Below are positions 4,993 to 24,422 of a DNA stretch of 28,234 nucleotides, piece by piece. Position 1 is the first letter of the stretch; the number at the start of each line of letters is the position of its first letter. The DNA comes from a virus. The position numbers and the translations under genes are program-made. The DNA lies in IMG/VR virus record IMGVR_UViG_3300021959_008455, positions 1 through 28,234 of that record; one strand, written 5' to 3'. The notes below the pieces were generated by a model. The model ran no database searches and was not told where the DNA came from. It saw only the letters and a list, made by a program, of their open reading frames with translations.

Positions 4993-5520
4993 TTATTCGT
5001 CGTCAGTATTAGGCTTTACATAAACCTGACCACCGCCGGACTCTAACATCTCTCTCTCATATACCTGCTCTCTATAATCGCATAGAGTCTGGTGATGTTT
5101 CTTTTCCTTTTTAATTCTATTAATGAAGGCGTGAAATGCGATAGTAGTAAAATATGAGAAAGGATTGTACTCTGAATCAACATTAAACTTTTTATTCTGT
5201 AAAGCAGTATACATCTTAACCAGAGCGTCACCTATCATTTCTTCTTTATAGGTATAATTTATAAAGTTAGATTTATTACCCAACCCATAAGCAATCTTTT
5301 TAAGTGAGTTGGCAAGATCGAAAATACAATCTTCAGTCACATAATACTCTCTAATCTGCTCCTTGAATACAGCCGGGTTGACATAGTACTCATCAATCTT
5401 CGGCTTAGGTCCCCTCTTCTTAGGTTTTGGTTTTTCCTCGACCACGGGAGCCTCATCAGTCTTAGGCTTCTCATCAGTCTTAGGCTTCTCGTCGGCTTTA
5501 GGTTCTTTATCGCTTGGCAT
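4993..5520 (-). CDS. 55: late-transcription sigma factor gp55
   Basis: Sigma-like factor that directs host RNA polymerase to TATAAATA late promoters. Residues about 44-150 align by eye with T4 gp55: YVN near the start, then a region-2-like block FINYTYKEEMIGDALVKM and FHAFINRIKKEKK. The first 43 residues are an added charged tail made of K-P-K-T-D-E repeats and a KKRGPKPK stretch. T4 gp55 ends with a hydrophobic sliding-clamp-binding motif; this protein ends VKPNTDDE and shows no such motif. Many TAAATA boxes in this window are its presumed targets. It is the first gene of the 55-47-46 operon. Confidence 0.92.
   Translation of the reverse strand: MPSDKEPKADEKPKTDEKPKTDEAPVVEEKPKPKKRGPKPKIDEYYVNPAVFKEQIREYYVTEDCIFDLANSLKKIAYGLGNKSNFINYTYKEEMIGDALVKMYTALQNKKFNVDSEYNPFSYFTTIAFHAFINRIKKEKKHHQTLCDYREQVYEREMLESGGGQVYVKPNTDDE
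5453..5506. repeat. 18-bp tandem repeat within gene 55
   Basis: Two perfect 18-bp copies (5453-5470 and 5471-5488) followed by a diverged third copy (5489-5506). They encode the K-P-K-T-D-E repeats of the gp55 N-terminal tail, so unit number could vary without a frameshift. Confidence 0.9.
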
Positions 5521-8761: not shown

Positions 8762-9343
8762 ATGGATAATTACACCCAACTTGCAAATAAGCTCCTTAAG
8801 GAGAGTATGGATAGTGCAACTCCTCACAGTGATACATCATTAGCGGATCAAATGATTGCACTGGATGATGATGGTAGATTCATCGCACCACCAGTAAAGA
8901 GTTATATAGAAGATGCGGAATCGTCTGCAGACCCAGTTATGGCTATTCTACAAAAGTATCCAGATGAAGTAGAAGATCTTAAAAATGGTGGAGAGTTAGC
9001 TCAGAATTTGTATGAAGAGTTATTTGAATACTATCTAGATAGTGGTGAGATACCATATGGTGTTGCAAAGGCTAGAACAGGTGATCCATATGAGTGGGTA
9101 TCCGATCAGCTGGATGAGCTAGGTATATTTACAGGGACACAACCTGAGGATAATGAGCCTGAAGATAATGAAGCAGAAATTACTGATGATGATCTAAAGA
9201 CCCTTCAGACTGCTAAAGAGTTAGCTGGCGGCCAAGCTAAAGGTGGTCTGTTTAGCAATCCAGAGAAGCAAATACAGAAAGCGTATGGTAAAATGCTTTC
9301 TAAAGTCTCAAAAAAAATAAACCAAGTAGCTAACAAAGTGTAA
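8762..9343 (+). CDS. acidic late virion-type protein with putative capsid-targeting N-terminus
   Basis: A 193-residue acidic protein of unknown function. The N-terminus MDNYTQLANKLLKE, followed by S, matches the pattern of a T4 internal-protein targeting peptide ending in a prohead protease site (L-K-E/S). The middle holds a compact domain (about residues 55-125), then an acidic D/E-N-P repeat (EDNEPEDNEAE) and a basic C-terminal helix. It is the first of four late genes separated by gaps of only 2 nt. A head-associated role is inferred from the context and tag. Confidence 0.72.
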   Translation: MDNYTQLANKLLKESMDSATPHSDTSLADQMIALDDDGRFIAPPVKSYIEDAESSADPVMAILQKYPDEVEDLKNGGELAQNLYEELFEYYLDSGEIPYGVAKARTGDPYEWVSDQLDELGIFTGTQPEDNEPEDNEAEITDDDLKTLQTAKELAGGQAKGGLFSNPEKQIQKAYGKMLSKVSKKINQVANKV

Positions 9344-9683: not shown

Positions 9684-10742
9684 ATGAGCTGGAAATCATT
9701 AGACCAAGTATATATACAAGAAGCTGCCCTAAAAAACGTAGCTAAATTACCGCGTCAACAGATAATTGGTGAGGATGTCTCAATATATGCTAAAGAAGAA
9801 GGTGGTAAGACGAATCATATCGGTGATGTGAGTAAGGAATACTATGATGAAGTTCTGATGAATAGAGTCAAATTAGGTTCGCATGCGAACGTTAGCCTAC
9901 GCAAAGAGGTAGAGCAACGTTTGGATAACTGTAATGGTAATATAGATAACAATGCTGATATATGGCAGAACTATATGTTAGAGGGTGCCTTCGATATGTC
10001 GGGTGCTAATTTTAAGAGCAGTGAAGATTATTTACTTTCTCTAATTTCACAAAGTAAACCGTTTTACTTAACAGATTTTATTAAAGCAAACTGGCCTGAT
10101 GCAGATGTTACTAACAAATATTATAAGCCTGCATTTTTAAGTATACCCGAAGCCCCAGTTTTTGGTAGACCAGGGGCTGGTGAATTATATTTAGCTTATT
10201 TTGCAAATGGAGAAAAACCTAAGAAAGGCGATTTAAATATAGCTGGCGTTGATATTGAACTCAAAGGACCTGGAGGTCGTCTTTTCAAAACTAAAAAAAT
10301 AGTTAATGATTTCAGTGACCTTCAACGGGATTATGAAAATGAAGATGTTGTATTGAATGGTATTGCAGAATTTATTACTAAAATGTCTCAAACTACGCAA
10401 TATAAATCAATGGTCTTAGAATTAGTAAAAATGTTTAAAGATTCTATGCTAAAAGAATATAACTATTTTAAAGAGCGTGGTAAATTAAGACCCGGAAACG
10501 AATTTACTTATATAGGTGGTTTAGCTCAATTATACGGCTATAAACAATTACAAGGATTTGATGTTTTTATGTCATTTTCCGTACAAAAAGATGGCAGAAT
10601 ACTTTTTAAACCTGTAGATATGAGAAATATTAATAATTTATCAGAATTACATAGCCTAATTAGTAGAGATACATTCTATAAATTTAGTATTAATAGAGAT
10701 GGTGCCGGATGGTCACTAGATAAAACACACCCGAAAAATTAA
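9684..10742 (+). CDS. putative packaged PD-(D/E)XK-like nuclease
   Basis: A 352-residue protein with a short N-terminal tag, MSWKSLDQVYIQE/AAL, whose I-Q-E/A end fits the T4 gp21 cleavage rule. The centre shows a restriction-endonuclease-like active site: GAGELYL (E167), GDLNIAG (D183) and VDIELKGPGG (E192, K194), giving E-x15-D-x8-E-x-K. This arrangement is typical of PD-(D/E)XK nucleases and several type II restriction enzymes. The rest is helical and not recognised. It is followed 2 nt later by the ligase/NMNAT fusion. Reading: a nuclease carried in the head, to act on host DNA or DNA ends. The fold call rests on motif spacing only. Confidence 0.62.
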   Translation: MSWKSLDQVYIQEAALKNVAKLPRQQIIGEDVSIYAKEEGGKTNHIGDVSKEYYDEVLMNRVKLGSHANVSLRKEVEQRLDNCNGNIDNNADIWQNYMLEGAFDMSGANFKSSEDYLLSLISQSKPFYLTDFIKANWPDADVTNKYYKPAFLSIPEAPVFGRPGAGELYLAYFANGEKPKKGDLNIAGVDIELKGPGGRLFKTKKIVNDFSDLQRDYENEDVVLNGIAEFITKMSQTTQYKSMVLELVKMFKDSMLKEYNYFKERGKLRPGNEFTYIGGLAQLYGYKQLQGFDVFMSFSVQKDGRILFKPVDMRNINNLSELHSLISRDTFYKFSINRDGAGWSLDKTHPKN

Positions 10743-10744
10743 AG

Positions 10745-12565
10745 ATGAAAACATTCAAACAATATTACAGTACTATTCTTAATGAAGGTGGTGCAGCTGG
10801 TCACATGGCTCATCCATTTGACCTACCTCAAGTTAAAACCGGTAAGGATCTAATAGGCTTTTTTGATAGAGCAGTTGGATCAATTAAGACTAACCCTCCT
10901 TCTGTTAAGATTGATGGTGTAAATGCTAGTTTTCGACTGATTGATACGCCTGAAGGGAAGGAGTTCGCACTTGATAGAGGTAGTATGAAGCCTTTAGATT
11001 TAGAAGGTATTACGATCGATAAGCTTGTAGATAGATTTGGTGAAGGTCACGGAATGGTTAATGCTGGTCGTACACTATTAACTATTATGAACGAGTCTAT
11101 TGATGGGATCACACCTGAACTTAAGCAATTAGGTATGTGGGATAACACAAATAGGTTCTTTAATACAGAGTTTGTACAAGGTACTACTAATGTTCTACAG
11201 TATGATAATGATTTCCTTGCTATTCACGGTATTAACGAGTTTTATCAAGCGACTCCTAGAAGAAGAGCTAGTAAAGAGGTAGAGTATAGTCCAAAAGTAC
11301 TCGACTCCCTCATTAAGAAGCTCGATAAGAATGCAGAGCAATATAACTTCAAGGTATACGGCAGTGTACCTGCTACCTTAACTAAGCAGCCTAACTACAC
11401 TCATGTGCTTAATAAGAACTTCAACGTCAATGTAGGTACAGAGAGGATTTCAAAACCCTTACGCGACTATCTTAATGAGGCTAATAACCCATTCGGTGAT
11501 AAAATTACATTACAGGACGGTAAGAAGGTAGGAGCTCTTAGCAAGTTTGTATATTTACAGATTCTTAACGGTGTACCGCTTGATACATTTATAAAAGATG
11601 AAGCAGATCATCAAAAAGCTATTGACGGTGCTGCGATATACCATGCTACTAGGCTCTTAGGTGATGAGTTACTAACAACCTTAACGTCAGACATGGGAGA
11701 CGTTAAATATCACGAGGGTATCGTTATAAGAGACCCAAAATTCCATAGTGCACCAGTAAAGGTTACCGGAGAATTTATTATCGGTGGTATGGCGTCTCAA
11801 TTTAGAAAAGAGGATGAAGAAATGACCCCTTACTACTCTAATTACGTTACAGAACCACCAGCAAGAGGAGATTTTTTCGGAAAAGGTAGGTTCAAACAGA
11901 GTGTTGACCCGATCGGTGAGAGTTTTGATGCAATATACAACAGCGTTATGCTAAATGAGTTTGAAGAGCCTGATAATGAGCGTGTTGTTGTTATTTACCC
12001 TGGTAGATTTCACCCGTTCCATAAAGGACATTCATCCATCTACAATAAACTAACGCAGAAGTTTCCTTATGCTGATGTATACATCACTACATCTGGTAAG
12101 ACTGATAGTGAAACTTCACCTTTTACGTTTGATGAGAAGAAAGAAATGATGTTATCAGCGGGAGTGGATGCTGATAAGATTGTTCAAGTAGCATCGCCTT
12201 ATATTGCTAAAGAGATCACTCAGAGATACGATGGCGATAATACTAAGATAATCTACGTGGTGTCACAAAAAGACATGGAGGGGAAAGATGCAAGGTTTAA
12301 GTTTGGTACCAAGCGAAACGGTGAGCCTAGTTACTTTCAACCTTTTGAAAGTGTAGGTGAGAGTGAATATATGTCTAAGCACGGGTATGTCGATGTTCTA
12401 CCGACAATGGACTTCAAGATTAACGATGAGAGTGTTCGTAGTGCTTCAGAAATCAGAGATATGTATAAGAATGCTGATGATAGCCAGAGGCTAGATCTTA
12501 TACAGAGCTTATACGGGTCTAGAGACCAGAAAATAAAGGATATTTTCGATAGTAAGTTGGTTTAA
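10745..12565 (+). CDS. ligase-like nucleotidyltransferase fused to NMNAT-like domain, with capsid-targeting N-terminus
   Basis: A 606-residue multidomain protein. Residues 1-14, MKTFKQYYSTILNE, followed by GG, match the T4 internal-protein tag and L-x-E/G protease site very closely. Residues about 30-350 show covalent nucleotidyltransferase (DNA/RNA ligase) motifs in order: KIDG (55-58, motif I with the lysine nucleophile), FNTEFV (139-144, motif III), HEGIVIRD (323-330, motif IV) and VKVTGEF (338-344, motif V). Residues about 412-575 are a cytidylyltransferase/NMNAT-like domain with GRFHPFHKGH (420-429, HxGH) and SVRSASEIR (563-571). The fusion could join ligation or RNA repair to NAD or nucleotide chemistry. 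Substrates are unknown. It closes the operon and is followed by a weak hairpin. Confidence 0.85.
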   Translation: MKTFKQYYSTILNEGGAAGHMAHPFDLPQVKTGKDLIGFFDRAVGSIKTNPPSVKIDGVNASFRLIDTPEGKEFALDRGSMKPLDLEGITIDKLVDRFGEGHGMVNAGRTLLTIMNESIDGITPELKQLGMWDNTNRFFNTEFVQGTTNVLQYDNDFLAIHGINEFYQATPRRRASKEVEYSPKVLDSLIKKLDKNAEQYNFKVYGSVPATLTKQPNYTHVLNKNFNVNVGTERISKPLRDYLNEANNPFGDKITLQDGKKVGALSKFVYLQILNGVPLDTFIKDEADHQKAIDGAAIYHATRLLGDELLTTLTSDMGDVKYHEGIVIRDPKFHSAPVKVTGEFIIGGMASQFRKEDEEMTPYYSNYVTEPPARGDFFGKGRFKQSVDPIGESFDAIYNSVMLNEFEEPDNERVVVIYPGRFHPFHKGHSSIYNKLTQKFPYADVYITTSGKTDSETSPFTFDEKKEMMLSAGVDADKIVQVASPYIAKEITQRYDGDNTKIIYVVSQKDMEGKDARFKFGTKRNGEPSYFQPFESVGESEYMSKHGYVDVLPTMDFKINDESVRSASEIRDMYKNADDSQRLDLIQSLYGSRDQKIKDIFDSKLV

Positions 12566-12607: not shown

Positions 12608-13369
12608 TCATTCACCATCTTCAATCTCTGGATTATCGACTCTAAAGTTTAGAGGTCTGACGCCTTTAGTAGTAGCAGCGTCTTGCTCATCTTCCACTTG
12701 ATCGTAATTATCTTGATAATCGAGGTGATGGAATACTGAAGAGAGGTAATCAGATGCTTTTGTAATCTTTGCTGCGACCCACCCGTCGAGAGAATCTACA
12801 TTAGCTATATGGTCAAAAAGCTTCGTTGAATATTCTTGAGCTTTTAGGAGATCTGCTCTTGCCATATCAACCTCACCATCATAATCGTCATGTTGATTAT
12901 GTCCACATTCATCATCTACTGGACCAGCTTGTATAAATACCGCTTCATCTTCTACGGCACCGCGGATGTTTGGTATACTACGAACCTTTGAATGCGGTGT
13001 TGTATTGCCAATTGACGTTACTCTAATCATAGAAGGTGTATTAGGACCTAACCCTAAATCATCTTCCTCTGCCGGCTTCTCCTCTACATCACCAGTAGAT
13101 TTACTTGCTATTTTACCTGCTACTGCTGGTGCTAATGCTCTAACAACGGTGCCCACGATAGGAGCAAAAGCAGCAAAATCTTCTTCAGGAACCTCTTCAT
13201 CATTAGGATTGACATAGGTCGGATCTGATCTAAATTTCGGACCACCTCTACCATCTGAGTCTGCATCACCTTTACGTAGCTGCCCACCTTTTGTATAGTG
13301 TTTACCTTTAGGAGCTTCTTTTGCTTCCATATATGCTTCAAATATGAGTCCGGATTCTACTTTAGCCAT
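12608..13369 (-). CDS. virion-type protein with putative capsid-targeting N-terminus
   Basis: A 253-residue acidic protein. The N-terminus MAKVESGLIFE, followed by AYMEA, contains I-F-E/A, a candidate prohead protease site. The next 50 residues are Gly/Lys/Asp-rich; residues about 64-90 are Ala/Val-rich and hydrophobic. Near residue 198 is WVAAKITKASDYLSSVFHHL, a W-V-x-x-K-I-T-K-A-x-D-Y-L pattern I associate with small virion-type proteins of marine T4-like phages. It is read leftward from a perfect TATAAATA box, divergent from the gene at 13402. Function unknown. Confidence 0.72.
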   Translation of the reverse strand: MAKVESGLIFEAYMEAKEAPKGKHYTKGGQLRKGDADSDGRGGPKFRSDPTYVNPNDEEVPEEDFAAFAPIVGTVVRALAPAVAGKIASKSTGDVEEKPAEEDDLGLGPNTPSMIRVTSIGNTTPHSKVRSIPNIRGAVEDEAVFIQAGPVDDECGHNQHDDYDGEVDMARADLLKAQEYSTKLFDHIANVDSLDGWVAAKITKASDYLSSVFHHLDYQDNYDQVEDEQDAATTKGVRPLNFRVDNPEIEDGE

Positions 13370-13401: not shown

Positions 13402-13752
13402 ATGGAATTTGATAAGTTGTATAATCAGCTCATGGAGACACTAGAGGAAAGTGCGGGAGAGCGTAAGTATGCAGAGGAAGATGCTGAGTATAGAGGTAGA
13501 AAAGTTACTCTCAATAAACCTATGCGCGGCGACGTTAAGAAGTTTAAAGTATATGTCAAAGATCCAAAGACAGGTAACGTTAAGAAAGTAAACTTCGGCC
13601 ATGGCGGTACATCCGCTAAAAGAAAGGGTGAGAAGACAATGAAGATTCGTAAGAGTAATCCAAAAGCTCGTAAGTCATTTAGGGCTAGACATAATTGTGA
13701 TAATCCAGGTCCAAAAACAAAAGCTCGTTACTGGAGCTGCAAGAAGTGGTAA
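13402..13752 (+). CDS. small basic Cys-containing late protein (RARHNC...YWSCKKW type)
   Basis: A 116-residue strongly basic protein. The N-terminus MEFDKLYNQLMETLEE/S resembles the other tags, with L-M-E or L-E-E as candidate protease sites. The remainder contains VKDPKTGNVKKVNFG and a C-terminal block KSFRARHNCDNPG...KARYWSCKKW with two cysteines. I recognise this block as recurring in T4-like phages, but no function is known to me. Charge and tag suggest a packaged DNA-binding protein. It leads a late unit with the structural gene 3 nt downstream. Confidence 0.75.
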   Translation: MEFDKLYNQLMETLEESAGERKYAEEDAEYRGRKVTLNKPMRGDVKKFKVYVKDPKTGNVKKVNFGHGGTSAKRKGEKTMKIRKSNPKARKSFRARHNCDNPGPKTKARYWSCKKW

Positions 13753-14657: not shown

Positions 14658-14831
14658 ATGAGATCATTTAAAACATTCTTCGAGCAACTAAAGGCAAAGT
14701 CTCATGAAGACGAGGATGCCCAAGACCGGTGCAAGAGAAAGGCTGATAAAGTATATGGTAAAAAAACCTCCGCTTACAAGTCCGGGGCTATAGTGAGATG
14801 TCGTAAAGGTAAAATTTGGAAAAAGAAATGA
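14658..14831 (+). CDS. 57-residue basic Cys-containing late protein with tag
   Basis: A very short gene. It begins MRSFKTFFE/QLK, close to the MKTFKQFFE of the gene at 15641, with F-F-E as candidate protease site. After an acidic link it continues RCKRKADKVYGKK, SAYKSGAIVRCRKGKIW and ends KKK. The C-x-n-K-V-Y / AYxSGAxVxCRKG pattern is one I recognise from small proteins of T4-type phages. It has its own late promoter, and its stop overlaps the next ATG (ATGA). Probably an internal head or DNA-binding protein. Confidence 0.8.
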   Translation: MRSFKTFFEQLKAKSHEDEDAQDRCKRKADKVYGKKTSAYKSGAIVRCRKGKIWKKK

Positions 14832-15103
14832 AGTTTGACGATTTAGTAGATAAATACCTTACTGAGGCGAGTGACAGCTTGCATCAGTGGTTTAAACGTG
14901 GTGGTACTGATCCAAAGACTGGTAAGAAGTTTAGTGGGTGGGTGAATTGTAAGACGGGTGGTCCTTGTGGCAGGAAATCTAAAAAATCAGGAGGTAGTTA
15001 TCCTGCGTGTAGACCAACAAAAGCCGCTTGCAAAAAAATAGAAGGCAAGATGTATAAAAAGAAGAGTTCGAAGAGGGTTAGTTGGAAAAAAGGTAAGAAG
15101 TAA
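14828..15103 (+). CDS. small basic Cys-containing late protein (GWVxC...YPACRPT type)
   Basis: A 91-residue basic protein. The start ATG at 14828 overlaps the previous stop. The tag MKFDDLVDKYLTE is followed by ASD, giving L-T-E/A, an excellent match to the T4 prohead protease rule. The body carries LHQWFKR, SGWVNCKTGGPCGRK and YPACRPTKAACKK, a cysteine/lysine motif family shared by many phages and some large eukaryotic viruses (DUF5872-like, from memory). The tail is KKKSSKRVSWKKGKK. A metal-bound DNA-binding role is plausible, not shown. Confidence 0.82.
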   Translation: MKFDDLVDKYLTEASDSLHQWFKRGGTDPKTGKKFSGWVNCKTGGPCGRKSKKSGGSYPACRPTKAACKKIEGKMYKKKSSKRVSWKKGKK

Positions 15104-15640: not shown

Positions 15641-16087
15641 GTGAAAACATTTAAGCAATTCTTTGAAGCAAATAAGCCACTCGGCTTAATCGAAACGCTT
15701 CATTTTCAAGATTTAGGTCCCATTGAAGCTAAAGTTGATAGCGGCAATGGGGCTTATAATGTACTCCATGGAGTAAATCTGCAGTACGGTAGTGGGTTAA
15801 AAGATGACGACGGTCACGGTAGATCTCATGTTACTTTTGATACTGTCAATAATAAAGCTCTAACAGAACCTATAAAGGAGGAGATCGATATTAATATTGG
15901 CTCCGGTAATATAGAGACTAGACCAGTCGTCGAACTTGATATTAAGGTTGGTGAAGAAAGCTTCCCCAATACAAGATTTTCTATAGGTGATAGGTCCTCG
16001 AACGAGTATAAGATCCTTCTAGGTAAAGAATTTATTGAGCAGTTAGGCGGTCTTATTGACGTAAGCGCTGAAAATAATTTAGACTAA
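15641..16087 (+). CDS. retropepsin-like (RimK-associated protease type) protein with capsid-targeting N-terminus
   Basis: A 148-residue protein, GTG start set by the late promoter 5 nt upstream. The tag MKTFKQFFE/ANK is nearly the same as in two other late proteins. The body matches the PF05618-type domain, once called an ATP-dependent zinc protease and now considered retropepsin-like: IEAKVDSGNGAYNVLHG with Asp33-Ser-Gly as the candidate catalytic triad, then TRPVVELDIKVG, FSIGDRS and YKILLGKEFI. A single domain of this kind would need to dimerise to be active. It may be a packaged protease or a structural relic of one. It overlaps the convergent gene by 4 nt. Confidence 0.75.
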   Translation: MKTFKQFFEANKPLGLIETLHFQDLGPIEAKVDSGNGAYNVLHGVNLQYGSGLKDDDGHGRSHVTFDTVNNKALTEPIKEEIDINIGSGNIETRPVVELDIKVGEESFPNTRFSIGDRSSNEYKILLGKEFIEQLGGLIDVSAENNLD

Positions 16088-17810: not shown

Positions 17811-19274
17811 ATGAGTAACTTTTTAAAGCTAGTTCAGGAAGTAACCCCAGCGGCAGGGGCTACAGGGAGTGAACCGGTAACGACTCCACCAGCTAGCAAA
17901 ACCTCACCGGCAGGTAAAAAGCCGGGTATACTTAATAAAGTGGTAAGTGGTGTACAAAAGATATCTAGTGCTATTGATACGATAAATAAGTATGGTACAG
18001 GTAAGTGGGATATTAATGATACTTTACAGGGTATACTTTCTAAGCAATTAGATAAAAGCACAGATAAAATGGGCCTGTTTGGTAAGTCAAAATACAGTCA
18101 AATCAAATTAGGTGAGGGTATAGTTACAAAAATTAATAACTATATAGGTGAAGAGAGTTCCGATGCTGATGCTGGTGTAGAGGGAGTGTCACAAGAGGGA
18201 GACTCGGTTACAAGTGAGTCAACATTAAATGGTAATTTTCTAAGAATGGTTGGAGAAGCTACTGCCGTGGTGGATAAAGATAAAGAGGGTAAATTTAAAA
18301 ACACGGCTCAGATGAAAGGTGGCGAAAAAGGTAAGTCTGTAAAATTAAAGGTTTGGGATGTACTAAAAGATGCTTTAGCTCTGCCAGATGATGCATCTAT
18401 CACTCTCAAAAATCCAGATCCTCAAATGAGCGGTAAAAAGGTAGTTGATAGGAGGGTTGATTGGATTACTAAAGGCGTACCAGCATTCCTCAAGAACATT
18501 AAAGATGAATATCCAGATATACCGTTTACATATGAAGGTCACAGCAAGGATGACGGTTTATCGGTATCAGCAATTGGACAAGAGGAGGAAGAGTTCAATT
18601 TTATGGATACTACCAGGCAGGATTGGATCAAAACCCTGGGTGCAGAAAAAGCAGAGAAGATTGTTAGAGGGCTTGTAGACATATACCCCGGTGATCGTAT
18701 TGTGTTTGAAGAGCCAGTAGAAGATGCGCCGGTAAAACTAACGAATGAAAATGCTATATTTAATTTAGCAGGTAGAACAAGCTTTGGCGCGAAGGGTATA
18801 CAATGGACTCTTAAGCCTCAATCTGCAGATGTAGCTGATATACTAGCTAAAGGTAATATAAAATATGTTACATATCTATTGCAAACACCCGATAATTCTT
18901 TTAAAGCTCCGGAGAGAAATACTGGTATTATATATGCATATGATGAAAACAACCAACCTATAAATTCAATAACTACAAAAGATGTCCGGTTTCAGTGGAA
19001 TGGGCAGGAAGGTTTATACACACTCAGCACTAATAATAATGAGTTAATGGGAGTTAAATACAGTGAAGGTCAGTTCCCTATTGGTAAGGATGAAGTTATG
19101 CCACTGACTGATGGTAAGCATATATTGTATAGACCTGATGAAAATTCTGCTTATTTTAAATTTAAGATAATACAGGATATGAACGACGCTGGTAAATATC
19201 TGATAGATAAGGATAAAGGTATTGCTGCGACCGAGCAAGATATAAAAGAGGCCGAAGCTAACGCAGACAGGTAA
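17811..19274 (+). CDS. large late virion-type protein with two capsid-targeting-like segments
   Basis: A 487-residue protein that I cannot assign. Residues 1-10, MSNFLKLVQE, resemble the tags of other late proteins. A second copy occurs inside at residues 142-149 (NFLRMVGE followed by A), so the protein looks like two tagged modules joined. Residues 11-135 are a Pro/Ala/Gly-rich linker with a helical part; 150-300 form a mixed domain (SVKLKVWDVLKDALALPDDAS); 300-470 are beta-rich. No enzyme motif is seen. Context and tag suggest an internal head protein. Confidence 0.72.
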   Translation: MSNFLKLVQEVTPAAGATGSEPVTTPPASKTSPAGKKPGILNKVVSGVQKISSAIDTINKYGTGKWDINDTLQGILSKQLDKSTDKMGLFGKSKYSQIKLGEGIVTKINNYIGEESSDADAGVEGVSQEGDSVTSESTLNGNFLRMVGEATAVVDKDKEGKFKNTAQMKGGEKGKSVKLKVWDVLKDALALPDDASITLKNPDPQMSGKKVVDRRVDWITKGVPAFLKNIKDEYPDIPFTYEGHSKDDGLSVSAIGQEEEEFNFMDTTRQDWIKTLGAEKAEKIVRGLVDIYPGDRIVFEEPVEDAPVKLTNENAIFNLAGRTSFGAKGIQWTLKPQSADVADILAKGNIKYVTYLLQTPDNSFKAPERNTGIIYAYDENNQPINSITTKDVRFQWNGQEGLYTLSTNNNELMGVKYSEGQFPIGKDEVMPLTDGKHILYRPDENSAYFKFKIIQDMNDAGKYLIDKDKGIAATEQDIKEAEANADR

Positions 19275-23578: not shown

Positions 23579-23791
23579 ATGATTAAATTTAATACATTTT
23601 TTGAAAACTACGCTGATGGCAAGGTGAAAGGTAAGAGTAAACCCGGTCGGGTAAAGCGCTCTGGTGCTAGTTGTAAGGGCTCTATAACTGAACTAAAACG
23701 CAAAGCTAAGAAGTATGGTGGTGAAAAAGGTAAAATGTATCAGTGGTGTCTTAACATGAAAGCTGGTAGAAAAAAAAGTGAAAATAAATAA
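23579..23791 (+). CDS. small basic late protein with tag (GASCKGS...YxWCxNMK type)
   Basis: A 70-residue basic protein. The tag MIKFNTFFE/NYA parallels the MKTFKQFFE and MRSFKTFFE starts. The body KPGRVKRSGASCKGSITELKRKAKK and MYQWCLNMKAGRKK (read separately) is a motif family I know from small proteins of T4-like phages, with two cysteines. Function unknown; a packaged DNA-binding role fits charge and tag. Its last codons contain the TAAATA box of the superoxide dismutase promoter. Confidence 0.78.
   Translation: MIKFNTFFENYADGKVKGKSKPGRVKRSGASCKGSITELKRKAKKYGGEKGKMYQWCLNMKAGRKKSENK
23785..23790 (+). promoter_or_regulatory. T4-type late promoter of superoxide dismutase
   Basis: TAAATA overlapping the previous stop codon, exactly 5 nt before the ATG at 23796. 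This fixes the start of the dismutase. Confidence 0.68.
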
Positions 23792-23795
23792 GAAG

Positions 23796-24422
23796 ATGAA
23801 GCATAATTATAATAAGTTAGCTGCCCTTGTATTAGAGAGTCTCGGAGGTTATAAACCAATCACACTACCATACTCGCTTGATGATTTAGAACCTCATATC
23901 GACGCGGAGACAATGAAGCTCCACTATAATAAGCATTATAAGGGATATGTAAAAAAACTAAATGATGCTATCGGCGCAAATCAACCACCTCTAAAGGAAT
24001 TAGTTAAAAAAACAGCTAATAAAAAAGCAGCAATTCGCAATAATGCCGGTGGTGCTTACAATCATCAACTCTTTTGGAATATGATGACCCCGCACAAGCA
24101 TTCGTGTAGAGGTTTAATAAAAGATGCAATTGAAAAGAAGTTTGGTTCAGTTGAAGAGTTCTACAGTGAATTTACCGACCAAGCTAAATCACACTTTGGT
24201 TCCGGCTGGGTATGGCTCGTAAAGAGTGGTAATACCTTAAAAATTATACAAACAGACAATCAAGATAACCCTCTTATGTTTGATCAAGGAGAACCGATAT
24301 TAGGTATTGATGTATGGGAGCATGCTTACTATAAAAAGTATGGCCCAGATAGAGAGAAGTATATTAAAAACTTTTTAAAGGTAGTTAACTGGGACTATTG
24401 TAATCAGCTACTATCGCTTTGA
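23796..24422 (+). CDS. sodA: Mn-type superoxide dismutase with putative capsid-targeting N-terminus
   Basis: Fe/Mn superoxide dismutase, 208 residues from the chosen ATG. All four metal ligands are present: His43 (KLHYNKH), His90 (AYNHQLFW), Asp172 and His176 (GIDVWEHAYY). GG at 85-86 with Gln156 in DNQDNPL is the Mn-type pattern. The enzyme proper begins at about residue 22 (YKPITLPYSLDDLEPHI has the normal start). Before it is a 14-residue segment MKHNYNKLAALVLE followed by S, absent from ordinary dismutases and like the prohead-protease tags of the late proteins. A TAAATA late box is 5 nt upstream. Inferred: a late, head-packaged dismutase. The longer frame from 23778 would lie upstream of the transcript start. 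Confidence 0.9.
   Translation: MKHNYNKLAALVLESLGGYKPITLPYSLDDLEPHIDAETMKLHYNKHYKGYVKKLNDAIGANQPPLKELVKKTANKKAAIRNNAGGAYNHQLFWNMMTPHKHSCRGLIKDAIEKKFGSVEEFYSEFTDQAKSHFGSGWVWLVKSGNTLKIIQTDNQDNPLMFDQGEPILGIDVWEHAYYKKYGPDREKYIKNFLKVVNWDYCNQLLSL

Follow-up and report, generated by a model that had tools for sequence, protein, structure and literature searches.

A candidate capsid-targeted Mn-type superoxide dismutase encoded by a marine T4-like phage

Phage superoxide dismutase (SOD) genes are usually interpreted as metabolic helpers in the infected cell. The SOD gene of the viral fragment IMGVR_UViG_3300021959_008455 raises the question of whether such an enzyme might instead travel in the virion, as its product begins with extra residues in front of the enzyme and its start codon is preceded by a TAAATA motif. 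An earlier note on this DNA had read these features as a late gene with a capsid-targeting-like, cleavable N-terminus. The window analyzed here is the whole fragment of 28,234 bases. It contains no head genes, and it encodes homologues of gp46, gp47, gp55 and uvsW amid marine T4-like genes. The gp55-like late sigma factor (4993..5520, (-); match to T4 gp55, 9e-11) is a component of the T4-type late transcription programme. A tRNA-Asn-like stretch at about 22845-22938 matches many phage tRNA-Asn genes.

Relatives of the gene are common among uncultured viruses. At least 585 matched stretches were found in the viral contig collection, and IMG/VR yielded 33 related SOD loci, one of them on a 185-kb contig (G001) that also encodes portal, prohead protease, major capsid, sheath and polymerase homologues. 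We examined 91 phage SODs closely (26 marine and 65 freshwater). A search for a close SOD in an isolate returned no phage record at 60% identity, and several of the best hits of that search resemble bacterial sequence within phage records.

An intact Mn-type dismutase with a phage-specific N-terminus

Both Pfam domains of Fe/Mn SODs, Sod_Fe_N (2.5e-24) and Sod_Fe_C (1.5e-37), are found in the product of the SOD ORF (23796-24422, (+), 208 aa). The metal ligands H43 (codon 23922-23924), H90 (24063-24065), D172 (24309-24311) and H176 (24321-24323), all on the (+) strand, do not vary among 16 aligned phage homologues; the same is true of the Mn-type Q156 (24261-24263, (+)) and the helix Gly-Gly pair GG85-86. 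This bears out the earlier observation that all metal ligands and the Mn-type Gln are present. Several second-shell residues are likewise invariant among phage SODs, across deep divergence. An AlphaFold model of the protein has a mean pLDDT of 89; nearly all of residues 1-15 score below 50. Superposed on S. aureus SodA, the model matches over residues 18-208, starting at SodA residue 2 (Z about 30, rmsd 1.2). Cleavage behind Glu14 would thus yield an enzyme of ordinary SOD length; the predicted mature protein runs from Ser15 to Leu208 (23838..24422, (+); stop 24420-24422). The gene is a Mn-type SOD with intact ligands and a confident SodA-like fold. It shares fold, ligands and Mn-type Gln with bacterial SodA and is 44-47% identical to SodA structures, but differs in its 14-residue phage-specific N-terminal extension and its position on a separate branch of the tree.

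The extension, MKHNYNKLAALVLE (residues 1-14; 23796..23837, (+)), is a putative capsid-targeting propeptide of low pLDDT with a predicted cut after Glu14; as had been pointed out, the segment ahead of the enzyme finishes with LVLE/S in the window (here and below, a slash marks the putative cut). Every close phage homologue that is complete at its N-terminus bears the extension, typically as M-[NK]-[YF]-x-x-[LI]-x-x-[LI]-I-L-E with a variable linker behind it. Glu14 does not change among the 16 aligned phage SODs, unlike the linker, and the junction motif [I/L/V]-x-E lies just before the enzyme. The putative P3 residue is Val in the window (V-L-E) and mostly Ile in relatives, while T4 sites use Leu or Ile; the Val is a conservative departure from the [L/I]-x-E motif. 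Since P1 is always Glu while P3 and P1' vary, the pattern is as expected of a protease site.

We counted [LIVF]-x-E within 5-17 residues upstream of the SOD domain in a uniform way. The motif was found in 25/26 marine and 65/65 freshwater phage SODs, compared to 4/77 bacterial SODs. The sole marine miss (L027) also has V-L-E, which was lost to the anchor rule of the count, and a cleavage-like site is thus present in all 91 phage SODs. The earlier note had named conservation of the N-terminus in cellular dismutases as evidence against its reading, and such conservation was not seen. The 77 bacterial SODs lack the 14-residue extension; cellular SODs mostly begin M-A-F-E-L-P-x-LPY or bear unrelated leaders.

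In the freshwater branch the front piece is different and longer, frequently with 34-45 residues counted from the likely start; some loci have a longer open frame. The same [I/L]-x-E junction is nevertheless present in 65/65 of these SODs, and is located 8 residues before LPY in 60/65. Most have Met at P1', making a shorter start possible. The front pieces of this branch (L160-L224) are coiled-coil-like and end in [IL]-x-E, with several frames open for at least 160 residues upstream, possibly as fusions. A tree splits cellular from phage SODs (100/100). The phage SODs look like, and are consistent with, a single old viral lineage, and the 91 tagged sequences should therefore not be counted as independent gains.

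A TAAATA motif at late-type spacing

A late-promoter-like TAAATA box lies at 23785..23790 (+), exactly 5 nt before ATG 23796, as first reported. With one more A in front (ATAAATA, 23784-23790), the box shares bases with the final AAA-TAA of the gene upstream. Spacing was counted for 509 genes, from the window and four relatives (G001, G002, G004 and G006). TAAATA preceded the start by 5 nt in 92/509 genes, by 6 nt in 37 and by 7 nt in 18, against a background of 7/1713 internal ATGs (0.4%) with the motif at 4-9 nt. Structural orthologues carried it within 4-9 nt far more often than replication orthologues (15/23 vs 3/22; p=7e-4, a generous value because the five genomes are related). TAAATA at 5 nt is a real, non-random signature in this phage group. 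Together, motif spacing and structural-gene enrichment support the proposal that the SOD gene is probably expressed late.

This geometry differs from that of T4, whose own TATAAATA lies 14-34 nt upstream, whereas the box of the window's clade lies at 5 nt; no 5-nt TAAATA peak was seen in phage C48C1. With T4 promoter geometry, a 5-nt gap would have transcripts begin at the ATG or directly beside it. By this analogy, the 92 starts with TAAATA at 5 nt predict that late mRNAs in the clade would be leaderless.

The SOD gene has its own TAAATA, at 5-7 nt, in the window and nine relatives. In most other relatives there is no conserved box, and SOD follows another gene, usually one for a tagged small basic protein, with which it overlaps as ATGA. 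The upstream gene of the window (23579..23791, (+)) encodes a small basic protein with the tag-like start MIKFNTFFE/N, and it is the homologue of this gene that overlaps the SOD start in most relatives.

Tag-like starts on other proteins and the T4 precedent

In T4, the prohead protease gp21 trims IPI-IPIII and Alt at their N-termini and also cleaves gp23 and gp24; the internal proteins are plentiful, and assembly can largely do without them (PMC9958956). T4 IPI-IPIII begin MKTFKEF or MKTYQEFIAE/A, the latter in IPII and IPIII. A gp21-type (Peptidase_S77) prohead protease is encoded in 9/19 records related to the window (including G001, G002, G006, G014, G019 and G020) and was not seen in the other 10/19, many of which are fragments. 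The major capsid proteins of relatives carry [LI]-x-E/A near the T4 gp23 site. The likeness to T4 comprises a short aromatic or hydrophobic N-terminal tag ending in [LI]-x-E, an enzyme or inhibitor as cargo, and a gp21-family protease in the clade. In contrast to T4, the cargo here is a dismutase, whose packaging we infer, and the tag letters (Y..L..LILE) differ from MKTYQEFIAE.

Similar starts occur on other proteins of the window. Some of these have TAAATA at 5 nt together with a tag or tag-like start: a late-type protein beginning MDNYTQLANKLLKE/S (8762..9343, (+)), a protein with a second tag style, MAKVESGLIFE/A (12608..13369, (-)), a small protein with the T4-IP-like start MRSFKTFFE/Q (14658..14831, (+)), and a Zn_protease/retropepsin-like protein with the T4-IP-like start KTFKQFFE/A (15641..16087, (+)), which is a candidate packaged enzyme. 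Another candidate packaged enzyme is a cytidylyltransferase-domain protein tagged MKTFKQYYSTILNE/G (10745..12565, (+)); this start and KTFKQFFE/A are close to the starts of the T4 internal proteins. Further tagged proteins begin MSWKSLDQVYIQE/A (9684..10742, (+)), MKFDDLVDKYLTE/A (a small basic protein; 14828..15103, (+)) and MSNFLKLVQE/V (17811..19274, (+)).

A regular expression for tag-like starts, composed after examples had been seen, matched 34/509 proteins in the five genomes compared to about 1.5-2% of internal positions. On T4 it caught IPII and IPIII of the four internal proteins tested, plus a false hit, gp43. A matrix built from the SOD tags alone gave scores of at least 6 for 12/497 other N-termini vs 8/2485 internal segments (p=1.4e-5). 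The T4 internal proteins score poorly on this matrix, which suggests that the tags share a style and a cut motif, not one strict sequence.

An HVA1-like basic protein (13402..13752, (+)) with the tag MEFDKLYNQLME/T and TAAATA at 5 nt allows a separate comparison. The window, G001 and the T4-like phages HTVC008M and C48C1 all encode it with an N-terminal extension. Its counterparts in five small phages infecting marine bacteria begin directly at the conserved domain, without a tag. The protein is an independent case of a tag limited to T4-like phages.

Packaging in the head and alternative readings

The intact SOD, its phage-specific tag, the shared junction, the fit of that junction to gp21-type processing with a prohead protease present in relatives, the similar tags on other proteins and the late motif together support a packaged dismutase. 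We propose that the window encodes a late, capsid-targeted Mn-SOD that is packaged in the head, with the prohead protease cutting it behind Glu14, and give this reading a probability of roughly 0.74; several comparative tests thus favor the capsid-targeting-like, cleavable N-terminus of the original proposal. The phage would express the enzyme late in infection, and its first 14 residues would act as a capsid-targeting sequence, with the amphipathic segment binding the prohead core. Core-bound SOD would co-assemble into the head, where a gp21-type protease would cut after Glu14, leaving a SodA-length dismutase with the DNA in the mature virion. There it might scavenge superoxide within the particle, or it might be ejected into the next host; the earlier note had suggested that it would protect packaged DNA or the next host at entry. 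If this is true, a packaged, processed dismutase would place antioxidant action in the particle or within minutes of the onset of infection.

We favor neither of these fates strongly. An active Mn-SOD ejected with the DNA could quench superoxide at entry, and aquatic T4-like phages would then bring a ready-made antioxidant to the next host, which we consider possible but doubtful. Ejected SOD would need to pass the tail tube, probably unfolded, and could lose its metal on the way; action within the particle would avoid this passage.

The gene could also be an ordinary auxiliary metabolic gene whose product acts in the late-infected cell, with the N-terminus serving as a phage-specific docking element or one that binds a membrane or partner, unrelated to the capsid. 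SOD-like genes are found on many phages, including contigs that show no T4 head machinery, the enzyme has every appearance of full activity, and late timing alone need not mean packaging. However, a metabolic role would not lead one to expect that two SOD branches share an invariant Glu in a prohead-protease-like motif immediately ahead of the domain, that unrelated proteins of these phages bear tags of the same style, or that the HVA1-like protein has lost its tag in small phages. We consider this explanation unlikely.

Tagged partners of the SOD are mostly small basic proteins without an assigned function, and the dispensability of the T4 internal proteins despite their abundance (PMC9958956) would also fit a packaged core component whose activity is incidental, the SOD fold being a filler or a scaffold-associated internal protein. 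Under such a role, the invariance of the ligands, the Mn-type Gln and several second-shell residues across deep divergence would be unexpected. The invariant active-site residues argue for selection on catalysis, and we judge incidental packaging to be improbable. That the extension is a product of chance or of a mis-assigned start, with the true protein starting at the SOD domain, is hardly credible: Met at P1' in part of the freshwater branch would allow it, but it finds no support in the window, whose protein has no second Met between residues 1 and 40, all marine relatives keep the extension as amino-acid sequence, and TAAATA stands 5 nt from ATG 23796.

Returning to the packaged dismutase, the earlier note knew of no described case. 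This holds for phages, as no virion-packaged or capsid-targeted phage SOD was found in the literature searched, with most subscription papers outside its coverage. It does not hold for viruses in general, since virion-packaged SODs have been reported for giant eukaryotic viruses (PMC9405923, which cites work on the Cu,Zn-SOD of Megavirus). These SODs are likewise virus-encoded and virion-associated, but the enzyme of the cited case is of the Cu,Zn type, the host is eukaryotic and there is no T4-type capsid-targeting tag. For uncultured T4-like phages, sequence alone gives a testable list of further candidate packaged proteins.

EST35_0261, a distant SOD-like protein of the Pseudomonas jumbo phage PA5oct, carries an annotation of detection by ESI-MS/MS. 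We downgraded this label as support for a virion location, as RNR, ThyA and FtsH, which are likely infected-cell enzymes, carry the same one. PA5oct is an unrelated phage, and its protein differs from the window SOD in being only about 27% identical and in lacking, by eye, the Mn-type Gln. It resembles the window SOD in having, also by eye, the four ligands, and in an I-A-E/A site near its N-terminus.
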